Under the pieces are notes generated by a model. It was not told the DNA's origin. It was given only the letters and a program-made list of their open reading frames with translations, and made no database searches. 33,019 nucleotides of DNA from an uncultured Geobacteraceae bacterium (GTDB lineage: Bacteria > Desulfobacterota > Desulfuromonadia > Geobacterales > CAIOGM01): NCBI GenBank assembly GCA_903902345.1, contig CAIUUR010000318.1, positions 1 to 33,019 on the forward strand, given 5' to 3'. Positions 815 through 27,524 of this stretch are shown here, in pieces (position 1 is the stretch's first letter; each line of letters begins with the position of its first letter). The position numbers were made by a program, and so were the translations under genes.

Positions 815-913
815 ATGGAACCGAAACAGTGCCTGAATGAGGAGACCCCCCAGATTCTCGACGAGATCGCGGTGGAAGAACTGGCCATCGACGGGATCTG
901 CGGGGTCTACTGA
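815..913 (+). CDS. mftA: Mycofactocin precursor peptide MftA (32 aa)
   Basis: A 32-residue peptide whose C-terminal half reads VEELAIDGICGVY. The Mycobacterium MftA signature is IDGMCGVY, so the only change in the eight-residue core is Met to Ile. In the known pathway the radical-SAM enzyme MftC acts on the terminal Val-Tyr of this peptide to make the redox cofactor mycofactocin. The strong site AGAGGAGAG lies six bases before the ATG. The stop is followed one base later by the mftB start, and mftC comes next, so the peptide, its chaperone and its modifying enzyme are adjacent. The ORF is short enough to be missed by default gene finders. Confidence 0.92.
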   Translation: MEPKQCLNEETPQILDEIAVEELAIDGICGVY

Positions 914-914
914 G

Positions 915-1172
915 ATGACTGAACCCAGGGTTAGCTTGCACAGGGCCTGCCGGGTTCGCAAAGAACGCTTCGGCCTCCTGTTTTATGACAGTCGGGGGCC
1001 GAGGCTGCTCTTTGCCGAAACCGGGGATCTGCTGGAACCCGGTTTTTTTACCGGAGAACTGTCCGTGAACGGTACACTGGACAAACTCACCGAAGCAGAA
1101 CAGCGGAAGGTAACCGGACTTCTCTCCAACCTGGCCAAGAAGGGATTCATCCGTGAGCAACAGATTTGTTGA
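915..1172 (+). CDS. mftB: Mycofactocin peptide chaperone MftB (RRE/PqqD-like)
   Basis: An 85-residue protein with the pattern of a RiPP recognition element: RACRVRKERFGLLFYDSRG, PRLLFAETGDLL, and a C-terminal helix ending LLSNLAKKGFI. MftB binds the MftA leader and delivers it to MftC; it has no catalytic residues. It starts one base after the mftA stop and overlaps mftC by 20 bases, as expected for a co-translated partner. Sequence identity in this family is low, so the call leans on position between mftA and mftC as well as on the RRE-like pattern. Confidence 0.88.
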   Translation: MTEPRVSLHRACRVRKERFGLLFYDSRGPRLLFAETGDLLEPGFFTGELSVNGTLDKLTEAEQRKVTGLLSNLAKKGFIREQQIC

Positions 1173-2172
1173 TCAGGGGCTCCGCGCCCCGGTAAATGTG
1201 ACATGGGAAGTGACGCTGCTCTGTAACCTCCGCTGCCGCCACTGCCTTTCCTCCTCCGGCGTGGCCGCCCCCCACGAACTGACCACCGCCGAGGCCCTCG
1301 ACCTGGTGGAACAGTTCGCCAAGGCCGGGGTCTTCCAGATCAATTTCGGTGGTGGTGAACCGTTCATGAGACCGGACTTCCTCCAGATCCTGGATGCCTG
1401 CCACGAACGGGGAATCATGACCTGCATCTCCACCAACGGGACCCTGCTGAACCGCCCCATGGTGGAACGGCTGGCCAAGAGCAGACTGGTGGCCATCCAG
1501 GTGAGCATGGACGGGGTGGACCGCAAAAGCTGTGACCTTCTTCGCGGCGACGGCACCTACGAGACCGCGCTCAGGGCCGTGGATATCTTGGCCAAGAGTC
1601 CCATCCCCACCAGCATCAACACCGTACTGACGGCGGCCAATGCCGCCGACATCCCGGAACTTCACGCTTTGGCCCGTTCCCTGGGGGTTTCCCTCCGGGT
1701 TAGTCGCTTCCGCCCCTCGGGACGGGGAGCGGAAAACTGGGAAGAGCTCCGCCCCACCCCACGCCAGCTTCTGGACTTTTCCAACTGGCTGGCGGAGAGC
1801 GGCGATGTCCGGACCGGCGACAGCTTCTTCTCCCTCACCTCCCAGGAACGCCAGGGGCTGGGGCTCAACCTCTGCGGAGCGGCCAAGCTGACCTGCTGCG
1901 TCGGTCCGGAAGGAAATTTCTTTCCCTGCGCCTTCCTCCAGCAGGAAGATTTTCTGGCAGGCTCCATCCGTCAGCAGAGCTTTCAGCAAATCTGGGACGA
2001 ATCCCCCATGTACGCCTCCTTCCGCCGCCTCCGGATTCACTCCTGCGAGGAGTGCCAGAGGTTCGACCAGTGTCACGGCGGCTGTCCGGCGGTGGCCTGG
2101 CATCTGAAAGGACGGATTGACGGCGGCGACCCGGAATGTCTGGAAAAATGCGTCACCATGGCGGAAGCGTAG
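1153..2172 (+). CDS. mftC: Mycofactocin radical SAM maturase MftC
   Basis: A 339-residue radical SAM/SPASM protein. The cluster motif CNLRCRHC (Cys24, Cys28, Cys31) holds the SAM-binding 4Fe-4S cluster, followed by INFGGGEPF (the GGE motif). Cysteines of a SPASM domain, which binds auxiliary clusters, fill the C-terminal 120 residues (LTCCVGPEGNFFPC, SCEECQRFDQCHGGC, and a final CLEKC). MftC oxidatively decarboxylates the C-terminal Tyr of MftA and then forms a Val-Tyr crosslink. The start is the GTG at 1153, eight bases after AAGGGA and inside the end of mftB. Radical SAM proteins are diverse, but the adjacent MftA signature makes this assignment firm. Confidence 0.93.
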   Translation: MSNRFVDQGLRAPVNVTWEVTLLCNLRCRHCLSSSGVAAPHELTTAEALDLVEQFAKAGVFQINFGGGEPFMRPDFLQILDACHERGIMTCISTNGTLLNRPMVERLAKSRLVAIQVSMDGVDRKSCDLLRGDGTYETALRAVDILAKSPIPTSINTVLTAANAADIPELHALARSLGVSLRVSRFRPSGRGAENWEELRPTPRQLLDFSNWLAESGDVRTGDSFFSLTSQERQGLGLNLCGAAKLTCCVGPEGNFFPCAFLQQEDFLAGSIRQQSFQQIWDESPMYASFRRLRIHSCEECQRFDQCHGGCPAVAWHLKGRIDGGDPECLEKCVTMAEA

Positions 2173-2189
2173 AAACGGTGAGGCGGTTT

Positions 2190-2266
2190 GAGGTTCTATG
2201 TTCAAGGTTCTATGTTCAAGGTTGAAGAACTTTGAACCCTGAACCCCGAACCTTGAACATCGAACC
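2190..2266. repeat. Inverted micro-repeat element between mftC and the OYE gene
   Basis: The left half repeats GGTTCTATGTTCAA twice and the right half has GAACCTTGAACATCGAACC, its approximate reverse complement. Together they can form a long imperfect hairpin made of units of about seven bases. It is one of four such elements in this window (also 6828-6962, 12292-12419 and 27525-27697). Confidence 0.75.
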
Positions 2267-2279
2267 GAGGAGTTTACCC

Positions 2280-4241
2280 ATGATGTTTCCCACGCTCTTC
2301 TCCCCCTTGAAGATCGGCCAGGTGGAGGTAAAAAACCGGATCTCCTTCCAGCCGCACCTGACAAATCTGGCAGTGGACTGTCTCCCCAGCGATGCCCAGA
2401 TGCACTACTGGGGGGAGCGGGCCAAGGGGGGGGCCGGACTTATCATCACCGAAGAGATGAGCGTCCACCCCACGGATCGGGCCTACGAGAAACTCATCGA
2501 CGTTTACCACAGTCAGGTCATCCCCGGTTTCCGGAAGATCACCAACTGCGTCCACCAGTACGACGCCAAGATCTTCGCCCAACTGAACCACAACGGCCAG
2601 CAGTGCGACGGGAGCCTCTCCCGGCTCCCCGTCTGGGCCCCCTCCCCCATGCCCGACGTCCTCTTCCGGGAGACCCCCAAGGCTATGGAAATAGAGGACA
2701 TTGAAGAGGTAGCTCGCTACTTCGCCAAGAGCGCCACCCATGTCAGGGCCGGACGGTTCGACGGCATAGAGATCCAGTTCGGCCATTCCAGCCTGGCCCG
2801 TCAGTTCCTCTCCCCCCTTACCAACTACCGGCAGGACGAATTTGGCGGCTCCCTGGAGAACCGTATGCGCGCGCCGCTCATGTTCATAGAGGCGGTGCGC
2901 AAGGCGGTGGGCAAGGATTACACCTTGGGGATACGGATGTGCGCCGATGAGATGATCCCCGGTGGCCTGGACCTGGCCCAGGTGCAGGAGATCGGCGCCC
3001 GCTTCGAGGCCTCCGGACTCATCGACTTCATGGATCTCTCCATCGCCACCTTCTACAACCTGTATCTTGTGGAAGGCTCCATGCACACCCCGCTGGGCTA
3101 CACCATCCCCCTGGCCGCGGGGATGAGGGAAAAGCTGAGACTCCCCGTTTTCTGCACCGGGCGAATCAACGACCCCACCATGGCTGAACGGGTGCTGGCC
3201 TCGGGGCAAGCGGACATGATCGGCATGTGCCGGGCACTCATCTGCGACCCGTACCTCCCCAAGAAAGCCAAGGAGGGGCGACTGGAGGATCTGCGTTACT
3301 GCGTTGCCGACAACCAGAACTGCATCGGCCGGATCGGGATGAACAAGACCATCGGCTGCATCCAGAACCCAGCCGTGGGGAAGGAAGCGGAATGGGGAGA
3401 AGGAACCCTCAAACCGGCCCCAGTAAAGAAGAAGGTGATGATCGTGGGAGGAGGACCGGCCGGAATGTGGGCGGCCAAAATGGCCGGCCGCCGGGGGCAC
3501 AAGGTCACCCTGTACGACAAGGGGACGGAGCTTGGCGGTCAGGTTCTCATCGCCGCCAAGGGAGCGGGGCGTGACGAGTTCGGAGTCCTGGCCCGCAACG
3601 AGAAGGAGCAGGTGAACAAGGCAGGAGTGACGGTCCAGCTGGGGAGTGAGGTCACCACCGCCCAGGTCCTGGCCGAAAAGCCCGACGTGGTTATCATCGC
3701 CACCGGGAGCGTCCCCAAGGAGTTTCCCGTAGGTGGGGCCGATGGCCCCGGCATCTGCAACGTCTGGCAGGTCCTCCAGGGGGAGGCGGAGTTGGGTGAA
3801 CATGTCTGCCTCATCGACTATGACGGCCACCACCGCGCCACCGCCACCGCCGAACTCCTGGCAATCCAGGGGAAGAAAGTTCACATCATCACCTCCAGCC
3901 TTTTCATCGGCGCGGAACTCGGTCCCACCCAGGACCTCTACCTGACCCGACAACGTCTCCTGCAGAAGGGGGTCACTTTTACCCCGGACATAGCCGTCAT
4001 GGAGGTGGGAGGTGAACTGGGGGCCAAGACGGTGAAGGGATTCAACGTCTACTCCAACCAGTGGGATCAGTGGGGCCCCTTCGACAACCTGGTCCTGGCC
4101 ATGGGGCAGCGAACCGTGGACGAGCTTTACTTCAGCCTCAAGGGTAAGGTGCCGGAACTCTACCGCATCGGCGACTGTGTGGCCCCCCGCAAGGTGGACA
4201 TGGCCATCTGGGAAGGACAGAAAGTGGGGAGGGAGATCTGA
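2280..4241 (+). CDS. Mycofactocin-system OYE/2,4-dienoyl-CoA reductase-like flavoenzyme
   Basis: A 653-residue two-domain oxidoreductase of the FadH/trimethylamine dehydrogenase type. Residues 1 to about 370 are an Old Yellow Enzyme barrel (FSPLKIGQVEVKNRI, FAQLNHNGQQ, EFGGSLENR) that should bind FMN. The 4Fe-4S segment is at 341-360. The C-terminal part has a dinucleotide-binding fold starting VMIVGGGPAGMWAA. Relatives in mycofactocin loci form named OYE families, but their reaction is unsettled. In the cluster motif the usual second cysteine is Asp344 (C341-x2-D344-x3-C348-x11-C360). The start follows GAGGAG; a second ATG at 2283 is equally possible. The stop overlaps the etfA start by one base. 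A role in moving hydride between mycofactocin, NAD(P)H and ETF is inferred from context. Confidence 0.85.
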   Translation: MMFPTLFSPLKIGQVEVKNRISFQPHLTNLAVDCLPSDAQMHYWGERAKGGAGLIITEEMSVHPTDRAYEKLIDVYHSQVIPGFRKITNCVHQYDAKIFAQLNHNGQQCDGSLSRLPVWAPSPMPDVLFRETPKAMEIEDIEEVARYFAKSATHVRAGRFDGIEIQFGHSSLARQFLSPLTNYRQDEFGGSLENRMRAPLMFIEAVRKAVGKDYTLGIRMCADEMIPGGLDLAQVQEIGARFEASGLIDFMDLSIATFYNLYLVEGSMHTPLGYTIPLAAGMREKLRLPVFCTGRINDPTMAERVLASGQADMIGMCRALICDPYLPKKAKEGRLEDLRYCVADNQNCIGRIGMNKTIGCIQNPAVGKEAEWGEGTLKPAPVKKKVMIVGGGPAGMWAAKMAGRRGHKVTLYDKGTELGGQVLIAAKGAGRDEFGVLARNEKEQVNKAGVTVQLGSEVTTAQVLAEKPDVVIIATGSVPKEFPVGGADGPGICNVWQVLQGEAELGEHVCLIDYDGHHRATATAELLAIQGKKVHIITSSLFIGAELGPTQDLYLTRQRLLQKGVTFTPDIAVMEVGGELGAKTVKGFNVYSNQWDQWGPFDNLVLAMGQRTVDELYFSLKGKVPELYRIGDCVAPRKVDMAIWEGQKVGREI

Positions 4242-5230
4242 TGCTACTCGTCATCCTGGAGTGCGCCGACGGTGAAATCGGTGACACCGACAAGGGGATA
4301 CTCTCCGCGGCAAACCGGATCAGCTCTACCCTGGAGGTTCCCTGGGGAGCGGCCGTGATCCCCGGCACTACTCCGGCAGATCCTGCCCCCTTCGCCCCCT
4401 ACGGCGTCCCGGAGGTGATCGTCACCGGAGAGGTGGCCGGGGCCGCGGATTCACCGGATCTGCAGGGGCAACTCCTGGCCCGACTGGCCCGGGAGAAAAA
4501 CGCCTCCCTGATCCTCCTCCCCCACACCGACGCCGGCGCCACCCTGGCGCCGCTCCTGGCTGCGGAACTGGATGCGGCCCTCGTCACCGAGGGGATCGCC
4601 ATCCGCCAGGCAGAGGGGGGGCTGGAGATTCAGCATCAGGCCCTGGGATGCCATGTCGCCCGCCTCCGCTCCTGGGATGGAAAGCGCCCCCTCGTCCTCA
4701 CTCTTCCCGTGAAGAGCCTGAGTCAGGTGGTTCTCCCCTCCATGAAACCGTCGCAGCCAATTCTCACTTCCTGGCAGCCCGACGGGTCGGGACTCTCCCC
4801 CAGGACAACGATCCTTCAGCGAATCCCCCCCGATCCGCAGACCGTGGATGTGAGCGAAGCCGAGGTCATTGTCAGCGTCGGCAAGGGGTGCGACCCTCAT
4901 ACGTTCGACCAGGTGAAGGAACTGGCCCGACTCCTCAACATTTCCCTGGGAGTTACCCGTCCGGTCTATGATCTGGGGTGGACCGGTTTCGAACGGATGA
5001 TCGGCCAGACCGGTCGGGCCGTAGCCCCCCGCCTCTATCTGGCGCTGGGGATTTCCGGTTCCATGCACCACCTGGGTGGAATAAAGGAATCCCGTCGGAT
5101 CGTGGCGGTAAACAGCGACACCAAGGCCCCCATCTTTGCCAATGCCGACGAGGGGTTCGTGGCCGACCTCAAAGAGCTCCTCCCCCGACTCCTGGAGCGG
5201 GTACGCAACGCCACGGAAGGTGCAGCATGA
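4241..5230 (+). CDS. Electron transfer flavoprotein alpha subunit (EtfA/FixB-like)
   Basis: A 329-residue EtfA homologue. The C-terminal FAD-binding domain is clear: IGQTGRAVAPRLYLALGISG, followed by HHLGGIKESRRIVAVN and APIFANADEGFVADL. The N-terminal half has the looser alpha/beta fold that pairs with the beta subunit. ETF carries electrons from flavin dehydrogenases to a membrane quinone reductase. The partner etfB is not adjacent but lies at 6993, after fixC and fixX, an unusual gene order. Start and stop overlap the neighbours by 1 and 4 bases, so translation is coupled. Dedicated service to the mycofactocin system is inferred from position. Confidence 0.9.
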   Translation: MLLVILECADGEIGDTDKGILSAANRISSTLEVPWGAAVIPGTTPADPAPFAPYGVPEVIVTGEVAGAADSPDLQGQLLARLAREKNASLILLPHTDAGATLAPLLAAELDAALVTEGIAIRQAEGGLEIQHQALGCHVARLRSWDGKRPLVLTLPVKSLSQVVLPSMKPSQPILTSWQPDGSGLSPRTTILQRIPPDPQTVDVSEAEVIVSVGKGCDPHTFDQVKELARLLNISLGVTRPVYDLGWTGFERMIGQTGRAVAPRLYLALGISGSMHHLGGIKESRRIVAVNSDTKAPIFANADEGFVADLKELLPRLLERVRNATEGAA

Positions 5231-6525
5231 AACAGTCATTTCAGGCAATCGTGGTAGGGGCGGGACCGGCAGGAGCCTCAGCTGCCCTGGCTATGGCCCG
5301 GGCAGGGCTGGACGTGGCTCTGGTGGAGCGGGGGAATTTTCCCGGCGAAAAGAGCATGTTCGGCGGTCTTCTCCACCGGATGACCTCCCTGGAGGAGCTT
5401 TTTCCCGACTTCTGGCACCGGGCTCCCCTGGAGCGGCACATCGCCAAGAAGGGAACGACCTTCATGACGGCGGAGTCCAGCTTCCACGTCCAGAACGAGA
5501 CAACCAACTTTTCCCGCACCCCCTACAACGGCTACACCTGCTTCCGCCCTCGCTTCGACCGGTGGCTGGCCGAGGAGGCCCGAAAAGCCGGGGCCACCCT
5601 CATTACCCGAGCGTTGGTGGAGGATGTGATCATGCGGGGGGGGAAAGTTGCCGGGGTGAAGATCCTTCGGGAAGGGGGAATCCTCCATGCGCCGGTGGTG
5701 GTGGCCGCCGACGGGGTCCTCTCCTTCACCGCCCTCAAGGCGGGACTCCGACGCCCCAAGTTCAACGTGGGACAGATGGCAGTGGGGGTCAAGGCGCTCA
5801 TCGACCTCCCCAAGGAGGTCATCGACGACCGGTTCGGCCTCTCCGGCGACCAGGGGTTTGCCAACGAATATGTCGGCTGCACGGGGGGGGTCCGGGGGGG
5901 AGGCTTCCTCTACACCAACTATGACACGGTCTCCGTGGGGCTGGTGGTTCACCTGGGGAGCCTCCGGGATAGCGGCAAGACCCCCTACGACCTGATGAAC
6001 TCCTTCCTGGAGCAGCCCCAACTGGCCAAGCTCCTCAAGGGTGGACGGCTTCTGGAGTACTCGGCCCATGTCATCCCCGAGGGGGGGTACGACATGATTC
6101 CGGAACTGGTGGGGGACGGCATCCTGGTGGCGGGGGACGCCGCGGCATTCTGCAACGCCACGGGGGTCAACCTGGAGGGGATCAACCTGGCCACCCATTC
6201 GGGAAGTCTGGCGGCCAAGACGGTGATCGCGGCCCACCAGCAGAACGACTTCTCCCGGAAGGGACTTAATCATTACAAGGATCTGCTGAACGACAGCTAC
6301 GTCATGAAGGACCTGAAGGCGTTCCGCCATGCCCCCCATATGCTCCATATCGACCGTATCTACCAGGAGTACCCGGAGCTGGTCTGCAACATGATGGAGC
6401 ATATCTACCGCATCGACGGCACCCCCAAGAGCAGCATCTCCAAGCTCCTGCTCCGGGAGTTGAAGGAAAAAGTCGGCCTGAAAAACGCCCTGTCCGACCT
6501 CTTCACCGCATGGAGGGCACTGTGA
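5227..6525 (+). CDS. fixC: FixC-like ETF:quinone oxidoreductase flavoprotein
   Basis: A 432-residue FAD protein of the FixC/geranylgeranyl reductase family. The N-terminus has the dinucleotide-binding motif VVGAGPAGASAALAMARAG and ends its first strand pair with LVERG. A second FAD motif, GILVAGDAAAFCNATGVNLE, is at about residues 297-316. FixC with FixX passes electrons from ETF to quinone, and in nitrogen fixers FixABCX can bifurcate electrons to ferredoxin. The ATG overlaps the etfA stop (ATGA), and the 3' end overlaps the ferredoxin-like partner. No nif genes are in view, so a nitrogen-fixation role is unlikely here; coupling mycofactocin oxidation to the quinone pool fits better. Confidence 0.88.
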   Translation: MKQSFQAIVVGAGPAGASAALAMARAGLDVALVERGNFPGEKSMFGGLLHRMTSLEELFPDFWHRAPLERHIAKKGTTFMTAESSFHVQNETTNFSRTPYNGYTCFRPRFDRWLAEEARKAGATLITRALVEDVIMRGGKVAGVKILREGGILHAPVVVAADGVLSFTALKAGLRRPKFNVGQMAVGVKALIDLPKEVIDDRFGLSGDQGFANEYVGCTGGVRGGGFLYTNYDTVSVGLVVHLGSLRDSGKTPYDLMNSFLEQPQLAKLLKGGRLLEYSAHVIPEGGYDMIPELVGDGILVAGDAAAFCNATGVNLEGINLATHSGSLAAKTVIAAHQQNDFSRKGLNHYKDLLNDSYVMKDLKAFRHAPHMLHIDRIYQEYPELVCNMMEHIYRIDGTPKSSISKLLLRELKEKVGLKNALSDLFTAWRAL

Positions 6526-6800
6526 ACATCGACGAGATCTTCGACTATACGAGCTTCAGCATCGATCGGGAGCCACACATTATCCTGGACCCCGCGATCT
6601 GCGCCGGCTGCCGGCAGCGGGGGTGTGTCAACTCCTGCCCGGCCCGCTGCTACAGCTACAACGAAGCGGAAGGTAGTGTGACTTTCGTCTACGACGGCTG
6701 CCTGGAGTGCGGCACCTGCTACATCGTCTGCGACCGGAACGCCTTCACCCGGTGGCGCTATCCCCGGGGAGGATTCGGCGTTGCCTTCCGGATGACGTAG
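6522..6800 (+). CDS. fixX: FixX-like ferredoxin
   Basis: A small ferredoxin-like protein of about 92 residues. It carries CAGCRQRGCVNSCPARC and CLECGTCYIVC, the cysteine set that holds the cluster in FixX and at the C-terminus of ETF:quinone oxidoreductase. I favour the GTG at 6522, which overlaps the fixC stop (GTGA) and sits four bases after GGAGGG. An ATG at 6510 would add four residues but has no binding site. It is the electron-accepting partner of FixC. It ends at a 190-base gap containing an inverted repeat before etfB. Confidence 0.88.
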   Translation: MNIDEIFDYTSFSIDREPHIILDPAICAGCRQRGCVNSCPARCYSYNEAEGSVTFVYDGCLECGTCYIVCDRNAFTRWRYPRGGFGVAFRMT

Positions 6801-6827
6801 ATTAAGATTAAAATCAAAGGCACAACC

Positions 6828-6962
6828 TTTGAACCGCAAAGACGCAAAGGACGCGAAGAAAGTCGAAAAAAACGACAGGAGCAGGAATCGTACAGGTTTA
6901 ACCAAAGACTTTCGGGTTTTCCTTGCGCTTCCTTTGCGTACGTTGCGTCTTTGCGGTTCAGA
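6828..6962. repeat. Inverted micro-repeat element between fixX and etfB
   Basis: The left arm TTGAACCGCAAAGACGCAAA (from 6829) and the right arm TTTGCGTACGTTGCGTCTTT, continuing GCGGTTCA, are near reverse complements separated by about 60 bases. The arms are built of CGCAAAG-like units. The element fills most of the only sizeable gap inside the fix/etf/mft operon and may act as a processing or attenuation hairpin. Confidence 0.75.
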
Positions 6963-6992
6963 GATTTTTTTCTGCTTTAAAGGTGAAAACCA

Positions 6993-7889
6993 ATGAGTGA
7001 TACCAAGAAAAACATCGCCGTCCTCCTCCGTCTGGCCAGTGATCCCCGACCTCCGGTCCGCCTCTCCACGGAAGGATCACGAATCAGGAGCCGCGGCATC
7101 CGGCAGATTCCCAACCCCGCCGACCTCACCGCGCTGGAAGAAGCCCTGGCCCTGGCAGTGCCACTGAAGGCCTCCGTAGTTGTTTTCGGCTTCGGCGACA
7201 AGCGACTGGACGACCTCCTCCGTCTGGGAATCTCCCTGGGAGCAACCCGCGCCGTCCGCCTGGGGGGTGAAGGGGTGGAGCGAGGGGATGCCCGGGCCAA
7301 CGCCCGGCTCCTGGCACGGGCTCTCCTGATCATGGATCCGATCCTCTTCATCACCGGCGACCGGATGGTGGACCGGGGAGATGACGCCGCCCCGGCCCTG
7401 GCCGCGGCGCTGCGGGAGTTCCCCGCAGTAAATCGGGTACTTACTGTCTCCCTCAAAGCCGATACCCTGGAGTTGCTGCGCAAATCCGACCGGGGAGGAC
7501 GACAACGGGTCAAGACGACCCTTCCCTGCGCCCTCCTGATGGCAGGGGAGGCACGGGAGGTGAGCTATCCCCCCCTGTCAGCGGTCATGTCGTCCCTGGA
7601 GGCGGAGGTGGAACTCTGGGGTCTGCCGGAACTGGGACTGCCAGAGCACGCCATCGGCAAGTCCGGGTCATATCTGGAAGGGAAACGGTTCATCACTCCC
7701 CGCCCCGACCCCATCCGGATCGCGACCCCCGACGCCAACCTCCCCACGTTTCAACGGATCAACTCCCTCCTCTCCGGCGGCATTCCTTCCCGGGAGGGGA
7801 AGATGCACCAGGGGAGTACCGACGACGCGGTGAACGGCCTCATGGCTCTCTTTGCCGCCGCGGGACTCCTCCCCGGAGAAAATCCGTGA
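6993..7889 (+). CDS. Electron transfer flavoprotein beta subunit (EtfB/FixA-like)
   Basis: A 298-residue EtfB homologue, somewhat longer than the usual 250-280. Family landmarks are IPNPADLTALEEALAL near the N-terminus, FITGDRMVDRGDDAAPALAA in the middle, and a C-terminal segment LPCALLMAGEAREVSYPPLS. EtfB forms the nucleotide-binding half of ETF with EtfA. Several family positions are altered, so whether it binds AMP (ordinary ETF) or a second FAD (bifurcating ETF) cannot be read by eye. The next gene starts inside its stop codon (GTGA overlap). Separation from etfA by fixC and fixX is unusual. Confidence 0.82.
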   Translation: MSDTKKNIAVLLRLASDPRPPVRLSTEGSRIRSRGIRQIPNPADLTALEEALALAVPLKASVVVFGFGDKRLDDLLRLGISLGATRAVRLGGEGVERGDARANARLLARALLIMDPILFITGDRMVDRGDDAAPALAAALREFPAVNRVLTVSLKADTLELLRKSDRGGRQRVKTTLPCALLMAGEAREVSYPPLSAVMSSLEAEVELWGLPELGLPEHAIGKSGSYLEGKRFITPRPDPIRIATPDANLPTFQRINSLLSGGIPSREGKMHQGSTDDAVNGLMALFAAAGLLPGENP

Positions 7890-9319
7890 TCTGCCGACTC
7901 CACCCCGAGATCAGGGTAGTGGAAAACAACCGGGGCTCATTCCTGGTGCGCGAACTCCCTCTCGCAGTCCTCAAGGTGAACGGACCATTGGCCGACACCG
8001 TGAAGCGGCTGCAGGCGTCGCCGGAGGGGGACCACACCCCCGGTGATGAGAAATGTCTGGAGCTCCTGGCGGCCCGTGGTTTTGCTCAGCGTCTCCCCCC
8101 ACCTGCCGTGGGTAATGAGGGACTCCCCCTGGTGAGCATCGTCATTCCGGTGAAGGATCGGGCCGGGGAGTTGGCCCGTTGCCTGGAGTCACTGGCTCAC
8201 GTGGAATATCCCCGCGAGCTGCGGGAGATCATCGTGGTGGACGACGGTAGCAGCGACGACTCCGCGGCCGTGGCTGTCCGCTGGGGCTGCCGCGTGGTAA
8301 CCACCGACAGCCCGGGAAGCGGACCGGCGGCGGCCCGCAACCGGGGAGTCTGCGTAGCCCGGGGGGAGATCCTGGCGTTCATCGATTCCGACTGCACCGC
8401 CTCCACCGGATGGTTGCGGGAACTCCTGGGGGGATTTTCCGATCCGGAACTGGCCGCAGTGGGGGGACTGGTGGACGGTATGCGTGAAGCCGGCCACCTG
8501 GACCGGTACGAGGCAGTCATGTCCAGCCTCACCCTGGGAACCAGGACCATGACCGGCTCTTCCGGAGAAGATACCTTCTACCTCCCCTCCTGCAACCTTC
8601 TGGTGAGAGCCGGAGCGTTCCGCTCCCTGGACGGCTTCTCCCCCGAGATGCACGTGGGGGAGGACGTGGACCTCTCCTGGCGGCTGCGGGATGCGGGGTG
8701 GCGGATCTCGTATGTTCCGGCCGGGCGAATCTGGCATGAGCACCGGAGCCGGTTCATCCCCTTCCTTCGACGGCGCTTCGACTACGGCACCTCGGAAGGA
8801 ACCCTGAACCTGCTTCACCCGGCCCGGCGCAAACGGATGATCATCCCCCCCCTCCCGGCCCTTGCCCTCCTCCTCGTCATCATAACGGCTCTGGGTGGCA
8901 GCTCGTGGTGTCTGGCCGGCGCACTGACCCTCACGGTGGGAGAGGCGCTGCTTCAGCAACGCCGACTGGCCCAGCGGGGAATCGGTATCGGCTGGCTCAC
9001 GGTCCTGAGGGCGCGATTACGCGGCACCGGGAGTCTGGCCTACTACCTGGGATACCACCTCCTCCGCTACTATGCCTGGCTGTTCATCTGCCTGATGCCG
9101 CTCTTTCCCCTGGCGGGGATGCTGTTGATTCTCATTGCTTTTTTGGCCGGCTCCGTGGATTATTGGATAAAACGACCGGGGATGAACTTCATCCTCTTTC
9201 TCGCTTTCTACCTGCCGGAACAGCTCGCCTACGGGGCGGGGGTCTTCGGGGGGTGTCTCAACCGGAAACATTTCGGCAGCTACCGGTTCGTCGTCAGGAA
9301 CAGCCTGGCGCAGGGATAA
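7886..9319 (+). CDS. mftF: Mycofactocin system glycosyltransferase MftF
   Basis: A 477-residue membrane-associated family 2 glycosyltransferase. Residues 1-70 form a small N-terminal domain resembling the PqqD-like segment of MftF. The GT-A catalytic part follows, with SIVIPVKDRAGELARCLESL, VVDDGSSDDS, the metal-binding FIDSDCTAS and EDVDLSWRLRDAGW. Three or more hydrophobic segments lie in the C-terminal 180 residues. In mycobacteria MftF adds beta-1,4-glucose chains to premycofactocin. The start is the GTG at 7886 overlapping the etfB stop. It is the last gene before the riboswitch of the next operon. Domain order and context make MftF much more likely than a generic glycosyltransferase. 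Confidence 0.88.
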   Translation: MICRLHPEIRVVENNRGSFLVRELPLAVLKVNGPLADTVKRLQASPEGDHTPGDEKCLELLAARGFAQRLPPPAVGNEGLPLVSIVIPVKDRAGELARCLESLAHVEYPRELREIIVVDDGSSDDSAAVAVRWGCRVVTTDSPGSGPAAARNRGVCVARGEILAFIDSDCTASTGWLRELLGGFSDPELAAVGGLVDGMREAGHLDRYEAVMSSLTLGTRTMTGSSGEDTFYLPSCNLLVRAGAFRSLDGFSPEMHVGEDVDLSWRLRDAGWRISYVPAGRIWHEHRSRFIPFLRRRFDYGTSEGTLNLLHPARRKRMIIPPLPALALLLVIITALGGSSWCLAGALTLTVGEALLQQRRLAQRGIGIGWLTVLRARLRGTGSLAYYLGYHLLRYYAWLFICLMPLFPLAGMLLILIAFLAGSVDYWIKRPGMNFILFLAFYLPEQLAYGAGVFGGCLNRKHFGSYRFVVRNSLAQG

Positions 9320-9483: not shown

Positions 9484-11220
9484 ATGGAGAAGATTGCACG
9501 GATTAACATGGGAGCGGCAGGCGGTCCGGAGGTAACAGTGACGGAGGTCGGAGAGTATGCCGGCCTGGGGGGAAGGGCGATGACCTCCATCATCATCGCC
9601 ACGGAGGTTCACCCCCTCGCCCACCCGCTGGGGGCAGAAAACAAACTCGTCATCGCTCCCGGCATGCTCAGCGGCACCGCCGGCGCCATGACCGGCCGAC
9701 TCTCGGTGGGGTGCAAGAGCCCCCTTACCGGGACCATCAAGGAATCCAACGCCGGAGGGCAGGCGGCCCAGGTCATGGCTCGCCTCGGCTACGCCGCCGT
9801 CATCCTGGAAGGGAAGCCCACCACCGACGATCTCTACAAGATCCATATCAACAAAGACGGCATCACGATCACGGTGGACAACTCTCTTCGTCTGATGGAC
9901 AACTACCCCGTCATCGCCAAACTGCGGGGAGAGTACGGCGACAAGGTCGCCTACATGACCATCGGCAGCGCCGGTGAACGGAAACTCCTCACCGCATCCA
10001 TCGCCTGCACCGACCCGGAGCTCCGCCCCACCCGCCACTGCGGTCGCGGCGGCGTCGGCGCGGTCATGGGGGCCAAGGGGATCAAGGCGATCATCCTTGA
10101 CGACGCCGGCCTGAAGATGCGTCCTCCCAAAGATCCGGAGCGGTACCGCGACGCCAACCGGAAGTTCGTGGAGGGGCTCCGGAAACACCCGGTCACCGGC
10201 GAAGGACTCCCCGCCTATGGCACCAACATCCTCACCAACATCCTCAACGAGGCGGGGGGGTATCCCACCCGGAACTTCAAGAGCGGCGTCTACGAAGGGG
10301 GTTCCAAGCTGAGCGGCGAAGCCCAGGCTGAACTGGAGATCAAGCGGGGAGGAAAAGCCACCCATGGCTGCCACCGCGGCTGCGTCATCCAATGCTCGGG
10401 GATCTACAACGACGCACAGGGGAACTACGTCACCAAGCAGCCGGAATACGAAACGGTCTGGTCCCATGGCGGCCACTGCGGCATCGACGACCTGGATACC
10501 GTGGCCAGACTGGATTACCTGGACGACAACATCGGGGTCGACACCATCGATATGGGGGTCGCCATCGGCGTTGCCATGGACGCGGGGGTCATCCCCTTCG
10601 GCGACAAGGAAGGAGCCATCCGACTCGTGGAAGAGGTGGGAAAGGGAACTCCGCTGGGTCGCATCCTGGGATGCGGCGCCGCCATTACCGGCAAGGTCTT
10701 CGGCGTGGAGCGGGTACCGGTGGTGAAGGATCAGGCCCTTCCCGCCTACGACCCCCGTCCCATTCAGGGGATCGGCGTCACCTACGCCACCACCACCCAG
10801 GGAGCGGATCATACCGCGGGGTATGCCATCGCCACCAACATCCTCAAGGTGGGGGGGGACGTGGACCCATTGAAGACCGAAGGACAGGTGGAGCTCTCCC
10901 GCAACCTCCAGATCGCCACGGCGGCCATTGATTCCACGGGGATGTGCCTCTTCATCGCCTTTGCCATCATGGACCAGCCGGAGACATTTCAGGCGCTCCT
11001 GGATATGCTGGGAAGTTTCTACGGCATCACCATGACCGGCGATGACGTGGTGGCCCTGGGAAAGAAGGTTCTCTCCGCGGAGCGGGATTTCAACAAGCGG
11101 GCCGGCTTCACCGCTGCTCATGATCGGCTCCCCCGCTTCTTCTACACCGAGGCCATCGAGCCGCACAACCAGGTGTTCGGGATCACCGACGAAGAGCTGG
11201 ATTCGGTATTCAACTGGTAA
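9484..11220 (+). CDS. aor: Aldehyde:ferredoxin oxidoreductase (tungsten-type)
   Basis: A 578-residue AOR-family enzyme. These bind a tungsten (or molybdenum) bis-pterin and one 4Fe-4S cluster, and oxidise aldehydes to carboxylic acids. Cluster ligands are Cys296, Cys300 and Cys304 (CHRGCVIQC) with Cys488 in DSTGMC, matching the family pattern of three close cysteines plus a distal one. Family blocks seen are GAENKLVIAPGMLSGT, GRGGVGAVMGAKGIKA and GADHTAGYA. The CxxxCxxxC spacing resembles bacterial AOR/YdhV-type enzymes rather than the archaeal CxxCxxxC. The start follows AAGGAGACG. The gene lies behind a Moco/Tuco-type riboswitch and ahead of moaD. The substrate cannot be told from sequence. 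Confidence 0.92.
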   Translation: MEKIARINMGAAGGPEVTVTEVGEYAGLGGRAMTSIIIATEVHPLAHPLGAENKLVIAPGMLSGTAGAMTGRLSVGCKSPLTGTIKESNAGGQAAQVMARLGYAAVILEGKPTTDDLYKIHINKDGITITVDNSLRLMDNYPVIAKLRGEYGDKVAYMTIGSAGERKLLTASIACTDPELRPTRHCGRGGVGAVMGAKGIKAIILDDAGLKMRPPKDPERYRDANRKFVEGLRKHPVTGEGLPAYGTNILTNILNEAGGYPTRNFKSGVYEGGSKLSGEAQAELEIKRGGKATHGCHRGCVIQCSGIYNDAQGNYVTKQPEYETVWSHGGHCGIDDLDTVARLDYLDDNIGVDTIDMGVAIGVAMDAGVIPFGDKEGAIRLVEEVGKGTPLGRILGCGAAITGKVFGVERVPVVKDQALPAYDPRPIQGIGVTYATTTQGADHTAGYAIATNILKVGGDVDPLKTEGQVELSRNLQIATAAIDSTGMCLFIAFAIMDQPETFQALLDMLGSFYGITMTGDDVVALGKKVLSAERDFNKRAGFTAAHDRLPRFFYTEAIEPHNQVFGITDEELDSVFNW

Positions 11221-12419: not shown

Positions 12420-12475
12420 ATTGGGAGCCAATTCAGGCCATTTTAAATGTATGAATTTTTAAACCACGTTCTCTT

Positions 12476-12505
12476 TTGGCACGCGTTATGTATTGACAGA
12501 TACAT
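12476..12505 (+). promoter_or_regulatory. Promoter with ModE-box-like operator for the ArsC-like/SBP/GTPase/ABC operon
   Basis: A -35 TTGGCA (12476-12481) is followed after 17 bases by GATACA (12499-12504). Between them lies CGTTATGTATTGACAGATAC, whose core ATGTAT-N6-ATACAT is a perfect inverted repeat at 12488-12505. CGTTATRT half sites resemble the E. coli ModE box. A sister site is at 18427-18458. Control by molybdate or tungstate is an inference. Confidence 0.5.
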
Positions 12506-12530
12506 CGAAGCCAACGGAGGAAGCGAACAG

Positions 12531-12968
12531 ATGGCGGATATCATCTACTACACCAAAATCGGCTGCATCACCTCGACCAAGCAGGTTAACCTGCTACGAC
12601 AATCGGGACACCAGGTAGAGGTCCGCGACCTCCTGGAGCATCCCTGGCAACCGGAAGAACTCCTTTCCTACTTCGGCGATCGGCCGGTGAAACTCTGGTT
12701 TAATCCCAACTCTCCCCGGATCAAATCAGGCGAGATTGATCCTTCAGCCTACCATGCAGCAGCCGCCCTGGAGATGATGCAGGGTGATCACCTCCTCATC
12801 CGCCGCCCCCTCATGATCTCCGGCGACAGAAAAATCTGCGGTTTCGATCCGGAGACACTCCATGCCTGGATCGGACTGAGCTCTCCTGAAGAAGCCATTG
12901 CCCGAAGCGGCGACCTTCAGAGCTGTTCGCACCCCCCTACTCCCGGTGAGCCGCCGGCCTGTCCATGA
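12531..12968 (+). CDS. ArsC/Spx-family protein (nitrogenase-associated-like)
   Basis: A 145-residue thioredoxin-fold protein of the ArsC family. It begins ADIIYYTKIGCITSTKQVNL, where Cys is followed by IT rather than the usual C-x5-R arsenate loop, then VEVRDLLEHPW and RRPLMISGDRKICGFDPE. Similar proteins are annotated as nitrogenase-associated or ArsC-related and often lack arsenate reductase activity. The start has GGAGGAAG eight bases upstream. The proline-rich tail (PPTPGEPPACP) is probably disordered. It is first in an operon behind a ModE-box-like operator and ahead of the SBP/GTPase/ABC trio, which suggests a metal-cofactor role rather than arsenic resistance. Confidence 0.75.
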   Translation: MADIIYYTKIGCITSTKQVNLLRQSGHQVEVRDLLEHPWQPEELLSYFGDRPVKLWFNPNSPRIKSGEIDPSAYHAAAALEMMQGDHLLIRRPLMISGDRKICGFDPETLHAWIGLSSPEEAIARSGDLQSCSHPPTPGEPPACP

Positions 12969-16110: not shown

Positions 16111-17217
16111 TTACACAACCTGCCGACCTTCAGCAATGTTGATGAGTTCGGGAAATGCCAGGGTTGCCGGACGGCTACCGCTCCCTTCAAACAGCACCTT
16201 CAAGATACCGGCTTTCTGGAGCAGCCTCAAAAGACCCATTGCCGTCTGTTTGGTCGGTATGCCGGAACGAACGGCAAAGTCGGTTGTCTTGAATATGGGG
16301 CGATCGAAAATCGCATCAAGCGCCTGAATCGCATACTGCGAATGGGTTACATCAACCACCCTGATCTTCATGGCTTCATACAGCGCCAAGATGCTTCTTA
16401 CCTTTTCGGCGTTATCCATGGCTTGTGCAATGATTGCCTTCAGAAAAAATTCGATCCAGCCGCTCCAGTCGCCTCCCTGTGATATGCCTTTCAATCGTTC
16501 GTAATACTCGTCCCGGTTTGTTTCCAGATAACCGCTCAGGTAGAACATGGGGCGCGACAAGGCATGCTTGGAAAAAAGGAACAGAGGGATAACAAGGCGG
16601 CCTATCCGACCGTTGCCGTCTTTGAATGGATGAACAAGCTCGAACTGCGCATGGACAACAGCGGTTTGAATCAGCACATCGGCGTCATCACTACCAAGAT
16701 AGCGCTCCCAGTTTTCCAGATGGTCAAGGAGTTGCAGCGGGCTTGGCGGAACAAAGGTTGCGTGATCGATGGTACAGTTGTAAGGTCCGATCCAGTTCTG
16801 ATCCCGCCGGAAGCTGCCCGGCTCTTTATCTTTGCCGCGCACACTGTTCATCAGCATCCGGTGCATCTCTTTTATCAGGCCAAGCGACAGCGGTCGGTAC
16901 GCCAACTCTTCCGTGGCGATCATCAAGGCGCTGCGATAATTAACAATTTCCTGAATGTCCTGGTTTTTTTCACCGGTGAAAGTCTGCCCGGCTTCGTGTT
17001 CCAAAACCTCATCCAGCGTTGCCTGCGTTCCCTCTATTTTGGAGGAAAGCACCGCCTCCTGCGTGGTCAGGGGTGACAGCAACACATTCGGGTTGACGAT
17101 CCCCTGCAACAGACCGTCATACCGGGCAAGCTCGGCATTGGCCTTGCCGACAAGACCGACCAAGCGGCCGTAGTCAATACTTGATAAAGGTAAAGCTTGC
17201 GGAGTGTATGGTTCCAT
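16111..17217 (-). CDS. fic: Fic-domain AMP-transferase (class II, self-inhibited)
   Basis: A 368-residue Fic protein. The catalytic motif HPFKDGNGRIGR (196-207) is intact, with the nucleophile-activating His196. The inhibitory helix motif SSKIEG (58-63; S-x3-E-G) lies N-terminal, as in class II Fic proteins, where Glu62 blocks ATP. The N-terminal LTTQEAVLSSKIEGTQATLD block is typical. The C-terminal 100 residues contain a winged-helix-like region (FKTTDFAVRSGIPTKQTAMG). Such proteins transfer AMP to protein hydroxyls, and targets cannot be predicted. The start has GAGG seven bases upstream. It is a single gene opposite in direction to its neighbours and unrelated to the metal genes. Confidence 0.92.
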   Translation of the reverse strand: MEPYTPQALPLSSIDYGRLVGLVGKANAELARYDGLLQGIVNPNVLLSPLTTQEAVLSSKIEGTQATLDEVLEHEAGQTFTGEKNQDIQEIVNYRSALMIATEELAYRPLSLGLIKEMHRMLMNSVRGKDKEPGSFRRDQNWIGPYNCTIDHATFVPPSPLQLLDHLENWERYLGSDDADVLIQTAVVHAQFELVHPFKDGNGRIGRLVIPLFLFSKHALSRPMFYLSGYLETNRDEYYERLKGISQGGDWSGWIEFFLKAIIAQAMDNAEKVRSILALYEAMKIRVVDVTHSQYAIQALDAIFDRPIFKTTDFAVRSGIPTKQTAMGLLRLLQKAGILKVLFEGSGSRPATLAFPELINIAEGRQVV

Positions 17218-18723: not shown

Positions 18724-18780
18724 ACTCCGTCCGTACTGAAATATTCCGGAATCTCACGTGGGACAACTGTCGTTTCCATC

Positions 18781-18836
18781 TTTACATTACACTTTGCATG
18801 GTATATTTATTTTTATCGGCACTGACATTTCAGTGC
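18781..18836 (+). promoter_or_regulatory. Probable modE promoter and palindromic operator
   Basis: TTTACA (18781-18786) and TATTTA (18804-18809) are 17 bases apart. Downstream, GCACTGACATTTCAGTGC (18819-18836) is a perfect 7+4+7 inverted repeat just at the expected transcript start. It may be an autoregulatory operator or a leader hairpin. Confidence 0.45.
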
Positions 18837-18868
18837 AAAACGGTAGCATTACTAACGGTGCCTGTTCA

Positions 18869-19678
18869 ATGACAGATAAAGGGAACACTCTCGGCCTCGC
18901 CGGCAATCTCTGGATCAACCGGGCCGATGACAGGTTTCTGGGAGGAGAGCGGATCAGACTCCTGGAAAAGATCGACGAGCTCGGCTCCATCACCAAGGCC
19001 GCAAAATCGGTGGGGATCAGCTACAAGACCGCCTGGGATACGGTAAATTTGATCAATAATCTGTCGGAGAGACCTCTGGTTGATCGTCTCACCGGGGGAA
19101 AAGGCGGCGGTGGCACCAGCCTCACCGCCGAAGGGAAGAAGGTCATCACGCAGTTCAATACCATTCAGGAAGAGCACCGTAGATTCCTGGACAACCTGGC
19201 AGACAGGCTGGGGGATACCGTCAGCCTCTATCAATTCCTAAGGAGAATTTCCATGAAAGTCAGCGCCCGCAACACCTTTGCCGGAACGGTCACCGCCATC
19301 ACCAAAGGGGCCGTCAACGCCGAAGTTACCCTCTCACTCAAAGGGGGAATCCCCCTCACCGCCGTCGTCACCAACGGCGCCATCGATAATCTGGGTCTCG
19401 CTGTGGGGACAGAGGCCTACGCCATCATCAAGGCCAGCTCCATCATCATCGGCGCCGACCTGCACGACGCCAAGATTAGCGCCCGCAATGTCTTCTGCGG
19501 CACGATCAACAAGATTATCGAGGGTCCGGTGAATACCGAGGTTGACGTGGAGATCGGCGGGGGCAACACCGTCAGCGCCGTCATTACCCACGACAGCTCC
19601 ACCCGACTGGAGCTGAAGGTGGGAGGACACGCCTGCGCCCTGTTCAAGGCATCCAGCGTCATCATCGGCGTCAGCTGA
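18869..19678 (+). CDS. modE: ModE-family molybdate-responsive regulator
   Basis: A 269-residue transcription factor. Residues 10-120 are the ModE winged helix (RLLEKIDELGSITKAAKSVG, SYKTAWDTVNLINN, then a GGKGGGGTSLT loop). Two Mop/TOBE molybdate-binding domains follow, each with SARN and TGAV-like strands: VSARNTFAGTVTAITKGAVN, and ISARNVFCGTINKIIEGPVN about 70 residues later, both ending KASSxIIG. ModE senses molybdate or tungstate and controls uptake and cofactor genes. The start at 18869 has a weak ribosome site. It lies 470 bases upstream of modA in the same direction. Confidence 0.94.
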   Translation: MTDKGNTLGLAGNLWINRADDRFLGGERIRLLEKIDELGSITKAAKSVGISYKTAWDTVNLINNLSERPLVDRLTGGKGGGGTSLTAEGKKVITQFNTIQEEHRRFLDNLADRLGDTVSLYQFLRRISMKVSARNTFAGTVTAITKGAVNAEVTLSLKGGIPLTAVVTNGAIDNLGLAVGTEAYAIIKASSIIIGADLHDAKISARNVFCGTINKIIEGPVNTEVDVEIGGGNTVSAVITHDSSTRLELKVGGHACALFKASSVIIGVS

Positions 19679-19682
19679 AGTC

Positions 19683-19715
19683 AAAAAAGGGAGACCGTCC
19701 ATGGCCTCCCTTTTT
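19683..19715 (+). terminator. Intrinsic terminator after modE
   Basis: AAAAAAGGGAG and CTCCCTTTTT form a stem around a 12-base loop with a terminal T-run. It separates modE from modABC. Confidence 0.85.
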
Positions 19716-19831
19716 CGGGCGGACCGTTGTATATGTTCAACCATAACGAATGCAATTTAATCCAGCATTCAGAGTGCGGGTAATTGCATTCGGCTTACAG
19801 GTAGTTCGTGACAAAGAGTATACCAGCCGTC

Positions 19832-19981
19832 TGTCATCCTGAACGAAGTGACGATACCGTTATGGAAATCAAGCAGATGCTTCACTTCGTTCAGCATGAC
19901 AGGCTTTTGTTTGTCATCCTGAACAAAGTGAAGGATCTGTTTTTAAAGCAGAAGCAGATCTTCGCTATCGCTCAGGATGAC
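19832..19981. repeat. Two tandem copies of a palindromic dispersed repeat
   Basis: Copy one runs from GTCATCCTGAACGAAGTGA (19832) to TTCACTTCGTTCAGCATGAC (19881-19900). Copy two runs from GTCATCCTGAACAAAGTGAA (19912) to CTTCGCTATCGCTCAGGATG (ending near 19980). Each is self-complementary. Confidence 0.8.
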
Positions 19982-20050
19982 AAGCTAAGGTCTGTAAGGT
20001 TTGACTACACGGATAAATCGGATACGCGCAAGGGGTATCCCCGCACCAAG

Positions 20051-20092
20051 CTCCCCCACCCCCTAACCCCCTCCCGCAAGGGGCGGGGGGAC
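20051..20092. repeat. C-rich/G-rich hairpin repeat
   Basis: CCCCTAACCCCCTCCC, GCAA loop, then GGGGCGGGGGG can fold as a GC-rich hairpin. It is a common type of dispersed intergenic repeat, 60 bases before modA. Confidence 0.5.
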
Positions 20093-20151
20093 TGATAGAC
20101 CATAGGCAAAACAGTAACAGGACATAACTAAGTTTAATCGGAGTTCAATTT

Positions 20152-20895
20152 ATGAAACTAGCAATAAAACTGACAACAGCCCTCCTCTCTATCCTGCTTT
20201 TCATTACTCCGGCCCTTGCCGGAGAGGTCAACCTCTCCGTGGCCGCCAGCCTGAAAGAGGTCATCAACGAACTTGCCGACGGCTTCGCCAAAACCCATCC
20301 CGGCGTAACCTTCGTCAAGAACTACGGCGCCTCCGGCGCCCTGGCCAAGCAGATCGAAAACGGCGCCCCCTCCGACCTCTTCGTCTCCGCCAACCGGGAG
20401 TGGCTTGAATACCTGAAGGGGAAGAAACTGGTGGATACAACCTCCGTGATCGACTTCACCTACAATACCCTGGTCTTTGCCGGCCGCCCCGGCAAGGCGG
20501 CAACACTTCAGGATCTGACCAAACTGGATAAGATCGCCCTGGGAAGTCCCAAGAGCGTCCCCGCCGGAGAGTACGCCCTGGAAGCGCTGAAGAAGAGCGC
20601 CCTGGAGAAGCAGCTTAATGGCAAGCTGGTCATGGCCAAGGATGTACGCGAATGTCTCATGTACGCCGAACGGGGTGAAGTGGACGGCGCCTTCGTTTAC
20701 AGAACCGACGCCCTGCAGGCAAAACAGGCGAAGATCCTCTTCACCGTCCCTCAGGAGCTCTACCCGCGAGTGACCTATCCCCTGGCATTGACGACTACCG
20801 GCGCGAAGAACAGGGATGCGGCGGCCTTTGCGGCCTATCTGAAGAGTGACGCTGCGAAGGGAACGCTTGCCCGATACGGGTTTGCTCCCAAATAA
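20152..20895 (+). CDS. modA: Molybdate ABC transporter, periplasmic binding protein ModA
   Basis: A 247-residue binding protein with a cleavable signal peptide (hydrophobic TALLSILLFITPALA, cut before GEVNLSV). Family landmarks: LSVAASLKEVINELADGFAK, a KNYGASGALAKQIENGAPSD oxyanion loop, and DLFVSANREWLEYL. It captures molybdate (and probably tungstate) in the periplasm. The start follows CGGAG. Followed nine bases later by modB. Confidence 0.95.
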   Translation: MKLAIKLTTALLSILLFITPALAGEVNLSVAASLKEVINELADGFAKTHPGVTFVKNYGASGALAKQIENGAPSDLFVSANREWLEYLKGKKLVDTTSVIDFTYNTLVFAGRPGKAATLQDLTKLDKIALGSPKSVPAGEYALEALKKSALEKQLNGKLVMAKDVRECLMYAERGEVDGAFVYRTDALQAKQAKILFTVPQELYPRVTYPLALTTTGAKNRDAAAFAAYLKSDAAKGTLARYGFAPK

Positions 20896-20904
20896 ACAAA
20901 CTAT

Positions 20905-21588: not shown

Positions 21589-21589
21589 T

Positions 21590-22666: not shown

Positions 22667-22807
22667 GCAGGAAAAGATAAAAACTATATATCCGAGTATC
22701 TGAATAGGCAATTAAAAGAAAAATGCTTTCCATCTACCCCGTCATGTGCTAATGTGACCGCCACTGCTTAATAAAACATGGTTATTAAATATTCAAATAC
22801 TTAGATA

Positions 22808-22902
22808 TTCTCCGAGCCGATTCACCTACACGGGTCATCCCGCACGGCGATCGGCCTATGGGTTCCGCGGGAAACGGCGGAGCCTCTCTCTGGAAAGGAG
22901 AA
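22808..22902 (+). ncRNA. Moco/Tuco-type riboswitch upstream of a porin gene
   Basis: Same architecture as the leader at 9333-9431: TTCTCCGAGCC at the 5' end, CGGCCTATGGGTTCCGCGGG, AAACGGCGG, GCCTC, and GGAGAA at the 3' end pairing with TTCTCC. The variable arm differs (GATTCACC versus GGCATGCC), as expected for a conserved RNA with changing stems. A terminator-like hairpin follows at 22950. GGAAAGGAGA inside the outer stem can also pair with TCTCTTTCC at 22941-22949, which offers a switch mechanism. Confidence 0.82.
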
Positions 22903-22949
22903 GAGCACGCAGGCGACTGAAGGTGAGAGTCGTTCTGAGGTCTCTTTCC

Positions 22950-22972: not shown

Positions 22973-23021
22973 ATACGTTTCACCGGGCTTGGCCCGGAAT
23001 TTAATTGCAGAGGAGAAGGCA

Positions 23022-27509: not shown

Positions 27510-27524
27510 ACCGATACACTGCGG

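Follow-up and report, generated by a model that had tools for sequence, protein, structure and literature searches.

A five-gene OYE2–ETF–FixCX cassette that trades places with mftD in mycofactocin loci of Desulfuromonadia and other prokaryotes

Mycofactocin is known almost solely from aerobic mycobacteria, in which MftG returns electrons to respiration. The mycobacterial locus has the order mftA-B-C-D-E-F, with MftG. Here we analyze a related locus in a stretch of 33,019 nt (contig CAIUUR010000318.1; hereafter the window) from a Desulfuromonadia genome that is 98% complete. Both loci have the MftA core, MftB, MftC and MftF; in the window, each of these scores above its NCBIfam cut-off (curated values, used throughout), and together they form a complete mycofactocin core. 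The loci differ between mftC and mftF. The window has no mftD, mftE or MftG gene there, and the interval is instead occupied by OYE2 (an old yellow enzyme homologue), etfA, fixC, fixX and etfB (Table 1). We call these five genes the cassette; in some hosts a tandem OYE1 gene lies ahead of it. An earlier annotation of this DNA, the original prediction, had assigned electron transfer flavoprotein (ETF) and FixCX genes to the mftC–mftF interval, and profile matches for all five genes bear this out.

Parts of this arrangement have been seen before. The mycofactocin clusters reported by Haft (2011) include the one in Geobacter uraniireducens, but what the flavoprotein does was left open there (PMC3023750). 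NCBIfam lists TIGR03997 and TIGR03996 as mycofactocin FadH/OYE 2 and 1, and NF038209 and TIGR04503 as mycofactocin-associated ETF alpha and beta. Streptomyces cassette loci already bear these OYE and ETF names, while FixC and FixX are unnamed as part of the set. Such names give association, no function. Our literature search, which did not extend to subscription reviews, found no paper on the cassette or on its mutual exclusion with mftD, and a search for mycofactocin with old yellow enzyme found only an unrelated paper on coumarin.

In Mycobacterium smegmatis, deletion of mftD abolishes all mycofactocins, whereas an unknown peptidase partly makes up for the loss of mftE (PMC7491314). The reaction of MftD has been described as aerobic (PMC8406134). 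Given that MftD, unlike MftE, cannot be bypassed, hosts with mftABCF and a normal MftA need another enzyme to deaminate AHDP, the released core. By position and exclusion, OYE2 is the best candidate for this oxidative deamination. We propose, with a probability of about 0.45, that OYE2–ETF–FixCX replaces the aerobic MftD step and delivers the electrons to quinone. On this proposal, an OYE/trimethylamine dehydrogenase-type enzyme with its own ETF and quinone oxidoreductase would constitute a second, O2-independent way to finish mycofactocin, spread through at least Desulfuromonadia, Chloroflexota, Dormibacteraeota, gammaproteobacteria, actinobacteria and haloarchaea. The direct evidence consists of gene content, conservation, mftD exclusion, two swaps within the class, use of the same slot elsewhere, protein families and motifs; from these we infer the substrate, route, electron sink and oxygen independence.

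The pathway would run as follows. MftA, MftB and MftC would make the Val-Tyr-derived cyclic core, and an unlinked peptidase would provide the MftE cut. OYE2, acting as an NAD(P)H-independent FMN/4Fe-4S dehydrogenase, would oxidize the amine of AHDP to the redox-active keto-amide, pre-mycofactocin. Electrons would pass from OYE2 to a non-bifurcating ETF (EtfAB) and from there, through FixCX, to the quinone pool, so that the oxidation of AHDP would need no O2. MftF would then glycosylate the oxidized product. OYE2 or the whole chain may additionally reoxidize mycofactocinol. If this is true, the cassette lets anaerobes make and use mycofactocin, and a function can be assigned to OYE and ETF families now named in databases by association alone.

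The original prediction had noted that the locus is without mftD and mftE, and the whole-genome search that it called for found neither in the genome of the window. The top match there to the mftD profile TIGR03966 scores 21 bits (cut-off 471). A profile search found MftE above cut-off in none of 277 class genomes. The genome's sole mftE match is a creatininase (119.6 bits, cut-off 172), which we considered as an MftE acting in trans and rejected. Its neighbors are a glucokinase-like ORF plus two ORFs resembling queE and queD, and its distribution is independent of mft: relatives occur in 161 of the 277 class genomes, 37/57 with mft versus 124/220 without (P = 0.29). MftG (TIGR03970) was above cut-off in none of 33 class genomes, with no match at all in the genome of the window, and it is also missing from every cassette genome tested.

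Within Desulfuromonadia, MftC exceeds its cut-off in 57 of 277 genomes and OYE2 in 58. The two occur together in 52 genomes and alone in 5 and 6, respectively (P = 2e-43). The order mftA-B-C-OYE2-etfA-fixC-fixX-etfB-mftF is kept in the class, with the complete run from mftC to mftF present in 44 fetched loci, the window included, and the identical order followed until the contig ends in 13 more. Chance is far from accounting for such an arrangement, given the recurrence of the gene order in 44 class loci and the joint occurrence of MftC with OYE2, and the earlier view that the five genes form one cassette tied to mycofactocin holds up. OYE2 is the best-conserved cassette protein, with 78–96% identity to that of the window among class loci, versus 43–83% for EtfA and EtfB. 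The eight C-terminal residues of MftA, IDGICGVY, are common to 53 class peptides. One of the 44 loci counted as complete (L095 of G150; G numbers denote genomes and L numbers fetched loci) has an OYE2 gene (4015–5340) that is short by ∼240 codons (residues 36–278) with intact neighbors, reflecting either a deletion or an assembly gap.

Two class loci are exceptional, L062 (G084) and L099 (G088), in which mftC is directly followed by mftF. A search of 58 class genomes for mftD gave three positives: these two and G125. In G084 and G088, mftD is present and the cassette is gone, while close relatives have the cassette and lack mftD. The mftD gene of G084 lies ∼1.5–2 kb from the mft genes on the opposite strand. 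The MftC tree pairs G088 as a sister with G087 (94% identical), which bears the cassette, and places G084 elsewhere, and well-supported branches force two separate cassette/mftD changes. The original prediction regarded mftD and mftE lying together in close relatives that lack the ETF genes as evidence against its reading; these two relatives have mftD and no cassette, and mftE is missing there, so that only half of that outcome is observed. G125 (L114, with L125 and L126) is the only class genome found to combine a full cassette with mftD, of which it has two similar copies on separate contigs from the cassette; this makes it a natural case in which to look at redundancy. Across 107 genomes, scored for the cassette in the locus and mftD in the genome, 62 have the cassette only, 32 mftD only, 1 both and 8 neither, with 4 undecidable due to a contig end (P = 5e-18, uncorrected for kinship).

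The most serious rival, and the idea of the original prediction, is that the cassette reoxidizes reduced mycofactocin, acting as a mycofactocinol:quinone oxidoreductase that does the mycobacterial job of MftG, while a separate, unlinked enzyme takes the MftD step. MftG is a GMC family protein of unrelated fold; a role in passing mycofactocin electrons to respiration is nevertheless one that it and the cassette could have in common. None of the 33 class genomes tested has MftG, nor does any cassette genome tested, and its replacement, in the ∼25% of MftC genomes concerned, is stated to be unknown in a 2025 paper (PMC11778925). A recycling route is needed, since class genomes with mft tend to have an iron alcohol dehydrogenase of the mycofactocin type. 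Electron flow through ETF to quinone would be downhill from the PMFT midpoint of −255 mV (PMC7491314), and a full quinone branch fits a high-flux job. On the other side, this reading leaves the essential MftD step without an assigned enzyme in every cassette genome but one, and both MftG and OYE2 are missing from several genomes that have mftD. Moreover, the swap partner is mftD. MftG was not found in G084 (76% complete) or G088 (99% complete), and G088 retains the mycofactocin-linked iron alcohol dehydrogenase despite its cassette loss. Across independent pairs of lineages, mftD changes opposite to the cassette in three and is unchanged in one, and mftG mostly shows no difference; cassette presence tracks mftD absence better than MftG absence. 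Since mftD, and not MftG, is what the cassette is exchanged for, and since G088 manages with neither cassette nor MftG, we rank reoxidation below replacement of MftD and consider it somewhat unlikely as the sole role. The view of the cassette as an anaerobe's counterpart of MftG is not supported; the cassette extends beyond anaerobes and is also present in Streptomyces and haloarchaea.

Scanning for relatives of MftC yielded 80 loci (one helper sequence, M. tuberculosis MftC, served to widen the search patterns and is the basis for no claim). Cassettes, often with OYE1 ahead, were found in Chloroflexales (L153), Dormibacteraeota (L156), Competibacteraceae (L163) and an actinomycete (L179), and one in Desulfobacterales (L150) is interrupted by a contig end. 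At these loci mftE is usual, and mftD never lies within 10 kb. Among loci outside the class generally, the region within 10 kb on either side holds OYE2 in 28, mftD in 18 and both in none. Haloarchaeal plasmids of Haloterrigena and Halolamina carry mftABC-mftF, with OYE2-etfA-fixC-fixX-etfB on the opposite strand; mftE is annotated in the former, and a creatininase-family gene occupies the corresponding place in the latter. The contrast is clearest among plasmids of Streptomyces. The Streptomyces NBC_00080 plasmid has the order mftG / mftA-B-C-D-E-F. Plasmids of Streptomyces NBC_00334, NBC_00564, NBC_00557, SAT1 and S. yangpuensis have mftA-B-C-OYE1-OYE2-etfA-fixC-fixX-etfB, followed by a short-chain dehydrogenase/reductase (SDR) gene, mftF or mftE in varying order. 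In all, 12 mftC-bearing plasmids have OYE2 in 8 cases and mftD in 4, never both and never neither. As most cassette loci retain mftE, the step that the cassette displaces is that of MftD. MftA ends in GVY in cassette and mftD loci alike. The recurrence of the same swap in bacteria and archaea suggests a second, oxygen-independent route to mycofactocin.

The tandem OYE1–OYE2 pairs of Streptomyces, Chloroflexales and Competibacteraceae raise the possibility of a dual role, in which one OYE oxidizes AHDP and the other mycofactocinol, with a common ETF–FixCX, and the single OYE2 of Desulfuromonadia and haloarchaea covers both or one. Consistent with this, each tandem pair has one ETF set, and neither mftD nor mftG occurs in cassette loci, whereas the mftD loci of Streptomyces and Tsukamurella have both. 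We regard a dual role as improbable, however, given that Desulfuromonadia and the two haloarchaeal plasmids have one OYE only.

OYE2 belongs to TIGR03997 ("mycofactocin system FadH/OYE family oxidoreductase 2"). Its predicted model (pLDDT 90) is roughly equally similar to naphthoyl-CoA reductase, histamine dehydrogenase and trimethylamine dehydrogenase (TMADH), with TM scores of 0.92–0.93. With the two amine dehydrogenases it has in common the three-domain fold, the FeS cluster region and a last domain without the NADPH motif, but identity is ∼27% and the Cys of the cysteinyl-FMN is absent. TMADH has ETF as its partner, in a solved complex (1o94); for OYE2, the adjacent ETF genes make ETF a candidate partner. 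The architecture is also that of 2,4-dienoyl-CoA reductase (DCR) and 2-naphthoyl-CoA reductase (TM 0.90–0.93). In the alignment, however, DCR has a pyridine-nucleotide GxGxxG motif and a Tyr, while OYE2 lacks the motif, with an invariant IDYDGH[HQ]RA as its second Rossmann motif, and has Ser at the Tyr position. These differences make an NADPH-dependent ene-reductase unlikely. Without the NADPH motif, OYE2 should draw electrons from its substrate and pass them to another protein, in the manner of amine dehydrogenases with ETF. The second ligand of the four-Cys [4Fe-4S] motif (residues 340–347) is Asp in the window and in 16/52 class homologues, which spread across several families, and Cys in 36. 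The Asp variant is possibly an Asp-ligated or [3Fe-4S] cluster.

The top NCBIfam matches of EtfA and EtfB are NF038209 mft_etfA (142 bits, under the cut-off of 240) and TIGR04503 mft_etfB (57 bits, under 200). Orthologues from Desulfuromonadia and haloarchaea in general fall below the cut-offs of these models, and public annotation therefore hides the cassette outside actinobacteria. EtfA retains its FAD-binding segment. In EtfB, the D-G-D-T-A-Q-V-G motif of the second nucleotide site is degenerate: DRGDDAAPA replaces DGDTAQVGP in the window, and across the family P or A stands for Q in 47/54 and P for G in 50/54. FixC matches the quinone-reducing FixC of Thermotoga (7koe_C) over its full length (E = 3e-83). 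Together, these features argue for a one-way chain from OYE2 to quinone; this OYE2–ETF–FixCX–quinone path is the natural reading and agrees with the respiratory module that the original prediction suggested. Its alternative was bifurcation of the FixABCX type to ferredoxin; oxidation of mycofactocin or NADH would then be coupled to reduction of quinone and ferredoxin. The Thermotoga EtfABCX complex (7koe) is indeed a bifurcating system with clear homologues of FixC and FixX, and with ETF subunits as well. Unlike that complex, the cassette has an EtfB that has lost the motif of bifurcating ETFs, its genes are linked to OYE2 and mft, and it encodes no NADH or ferredoxin partner of the kind required. 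We therefore rejected bifurcation as the principal reading and consider it very improbable.

Several observations weigh against replacement of MftD by the cassette. Once the tree is taken into account, the exclusion is left with just three independent pairs that are informative, each of them opposite (P = 0.25); the exclusion is thus strong in its repeated occurrence and position but weak in formal statistical terms. For the plasmid hosts, the mftD search covered plasmids and not chromosomes. The mftD of the swapped lineages must function in relatives of anaerobes, and a dedicated quinone branch seems heavy for a single biosynthetic step. At the protein level, Leu26 of OYE2 aligns with Cys30 of TMADH, leaving no flavin-linking Cys, and the closest fold to the model is naphthoyl-CoA reductase. 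Ten Geodermatophilus and Pseudonocardia genomes (L157, L167, L168, L180, L182, L184, L186, L190, L195 and L198) have OYE1/OYE2 in the mft locus together with an unlinked mftD, most with MftG; ETF–FixCX was not detected at these mft loci. Two mft loci per genome do not explain this pattern, as each genome has a single mftC. OYE2 thus has another or additional role, at least in these genomes, which weakens any claim that it replaces MftD everywhere, and for this reason we restrict the proposal to the complete OYE–ETF–FixCX set. Finally, four Thermodesulfobacteriota genomes have mftABCF and neither mftD nor OYE2 or the cassette. In this group (L143–L149; Syntrophaceae, Desulfobacteraceae and Desulfomonilaceae), where 4/7 genomes lack mftD and OYE2, MftA ends in GICGIY rather than GVY. 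These organisms may thus make a different molecule, perhaps a variant cofactor with an Ile-Tyr core.

The exchange of the five-gene cassette with mftD bears on how mycofactocin is completed and regenerated in anaerobes that carry mft genes, and makes both questions open to direct gene-swap experiments.

Genes around the locus point to possible clients of mycofactocin. An iron-containing alcohol dehydrogenase occurs in 51/57 class genomes with mft, as opposed to 11/220 without, and is probably a mycofactocin client in these anaerobes. It is related to the NDMA-dependent methanol dehydrogenase and often lies 10–25 kb from mft (e.g. G000:C385:4716–5753). Nowhere in the class does it reach the cut-off of the curated methanol dehydrogenase model TIGR04266, and hence it is a relative only. 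In most class loci, a gene for a tungsten-type aldehyde:ferredoxin oxidoreductase (AOR) directly follows mftF; in the window, positions 18758–28961 encode ModE, ModABC, a TupA-like and a WtpC-like transporter and MoeA. From the AOR and metal genes, the window likely encodes a pathway from alcohol to acid together with a dedicated supply of metal.

The adjoining AOR gene invites a further explanation, that OYE2 serves a mycofactocin-coupled growth substrate (e.g. an alcohol/aldehyde pathway with AOR), with ETF–FixCX dedicated to that catabolism and with the making and the recycling of mycofactocin both independent of the cassette. OYE-type enzymes are catabolic in many pathways, and OYE1/OYE2 persist in actinobacteria having mftD and MftG. 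But OYE2 sits among the genes for mycofactocin synthesis in hosts that are unrelated and differ in their alcohol dehydrogenases (of the iron type in the class, of the SDR type in haloarchaea and Streptomyces), it is more conserved than MftC, and the cassette trades places with mftD. A catabolic role is thus quite improbable.

The genes from mftA to mftF plausibly form one operon. All starts and stops had been described as overlapping save for one repeat-filled gap; there are actually two gaps, 2173–2282 (mftC–OYE2) and 6801–6992 (fixX–etfB), each with a long inverted repeat.

Table 1. Features of the mycofactocin locus in the window
Feature	Position	Strand	Evidence or detail
mftA, mycofactocin precursor, 32 aa, core IDGICGVY	815..913	+	NF040489 46 bits, TIGR03969 40 bits, both over cut-off
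mftB, RiPP chaperone	915..1172	+	TIGR03967 55 bits, cut-off 33
mftC, radical SAM/SPASM maturase	1153..2172	+	TIGR03962 345 bits, cut-off 265
Inverted repeat, mftC–OYE2 gap	2192..2266	.	35-nt arms (2192–2226/2232–2266), 83% complementary
OYE2, FMN/Fe-S/Rossmann enzyme, TMADH/DCR architecture	2283..4241 (alternative start ATG at 2280)	+	TIGR03997 962 bits, cut-off 793
etfA (FixB-like), FAD-carrying ETF subunit	4241..5230	+	PF00766, PF01012 over cut-off
fixC, ETF:quinone oxidoreductase	5227..6525	+	PRK10157 FixC 369 bits; ETFQO_UQ-bd domain over cut-off
fixX, dicluster ferredoxin	6510..6800	+	PRK15449 FixX 71 bits; Fer4_10, Fer4_9 over cut-off
Inverted repeat, fixX–etfB gap	6824..6966	.	39-nt arms (6824–6862/6928–6966), 85% complementary, 65 nt apart
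etfB (FixA-like), degenerate second nucleotide-site motif	6993..7889	+	PF01012 48.5 bits
mftF, mycofactocin glycosyltransferase	7886..9319	+	TIGR03965 366 bits, cut-off 280
Aldehyde:ferredoxin oxidoreductase family gene; neighbor, outside cassette	9484..11220	+	AFOR_N, AFOR_C over cut-off

Two further genes of the window, at 12447–12968 and 16111–17217 (−), separate the AOR gene from those for molybdate; their products are a "nitrogenase-associated protein" (above the cut-off of TIGR01616) and a Fic-type adenylyltransferase (under that of NF046030).

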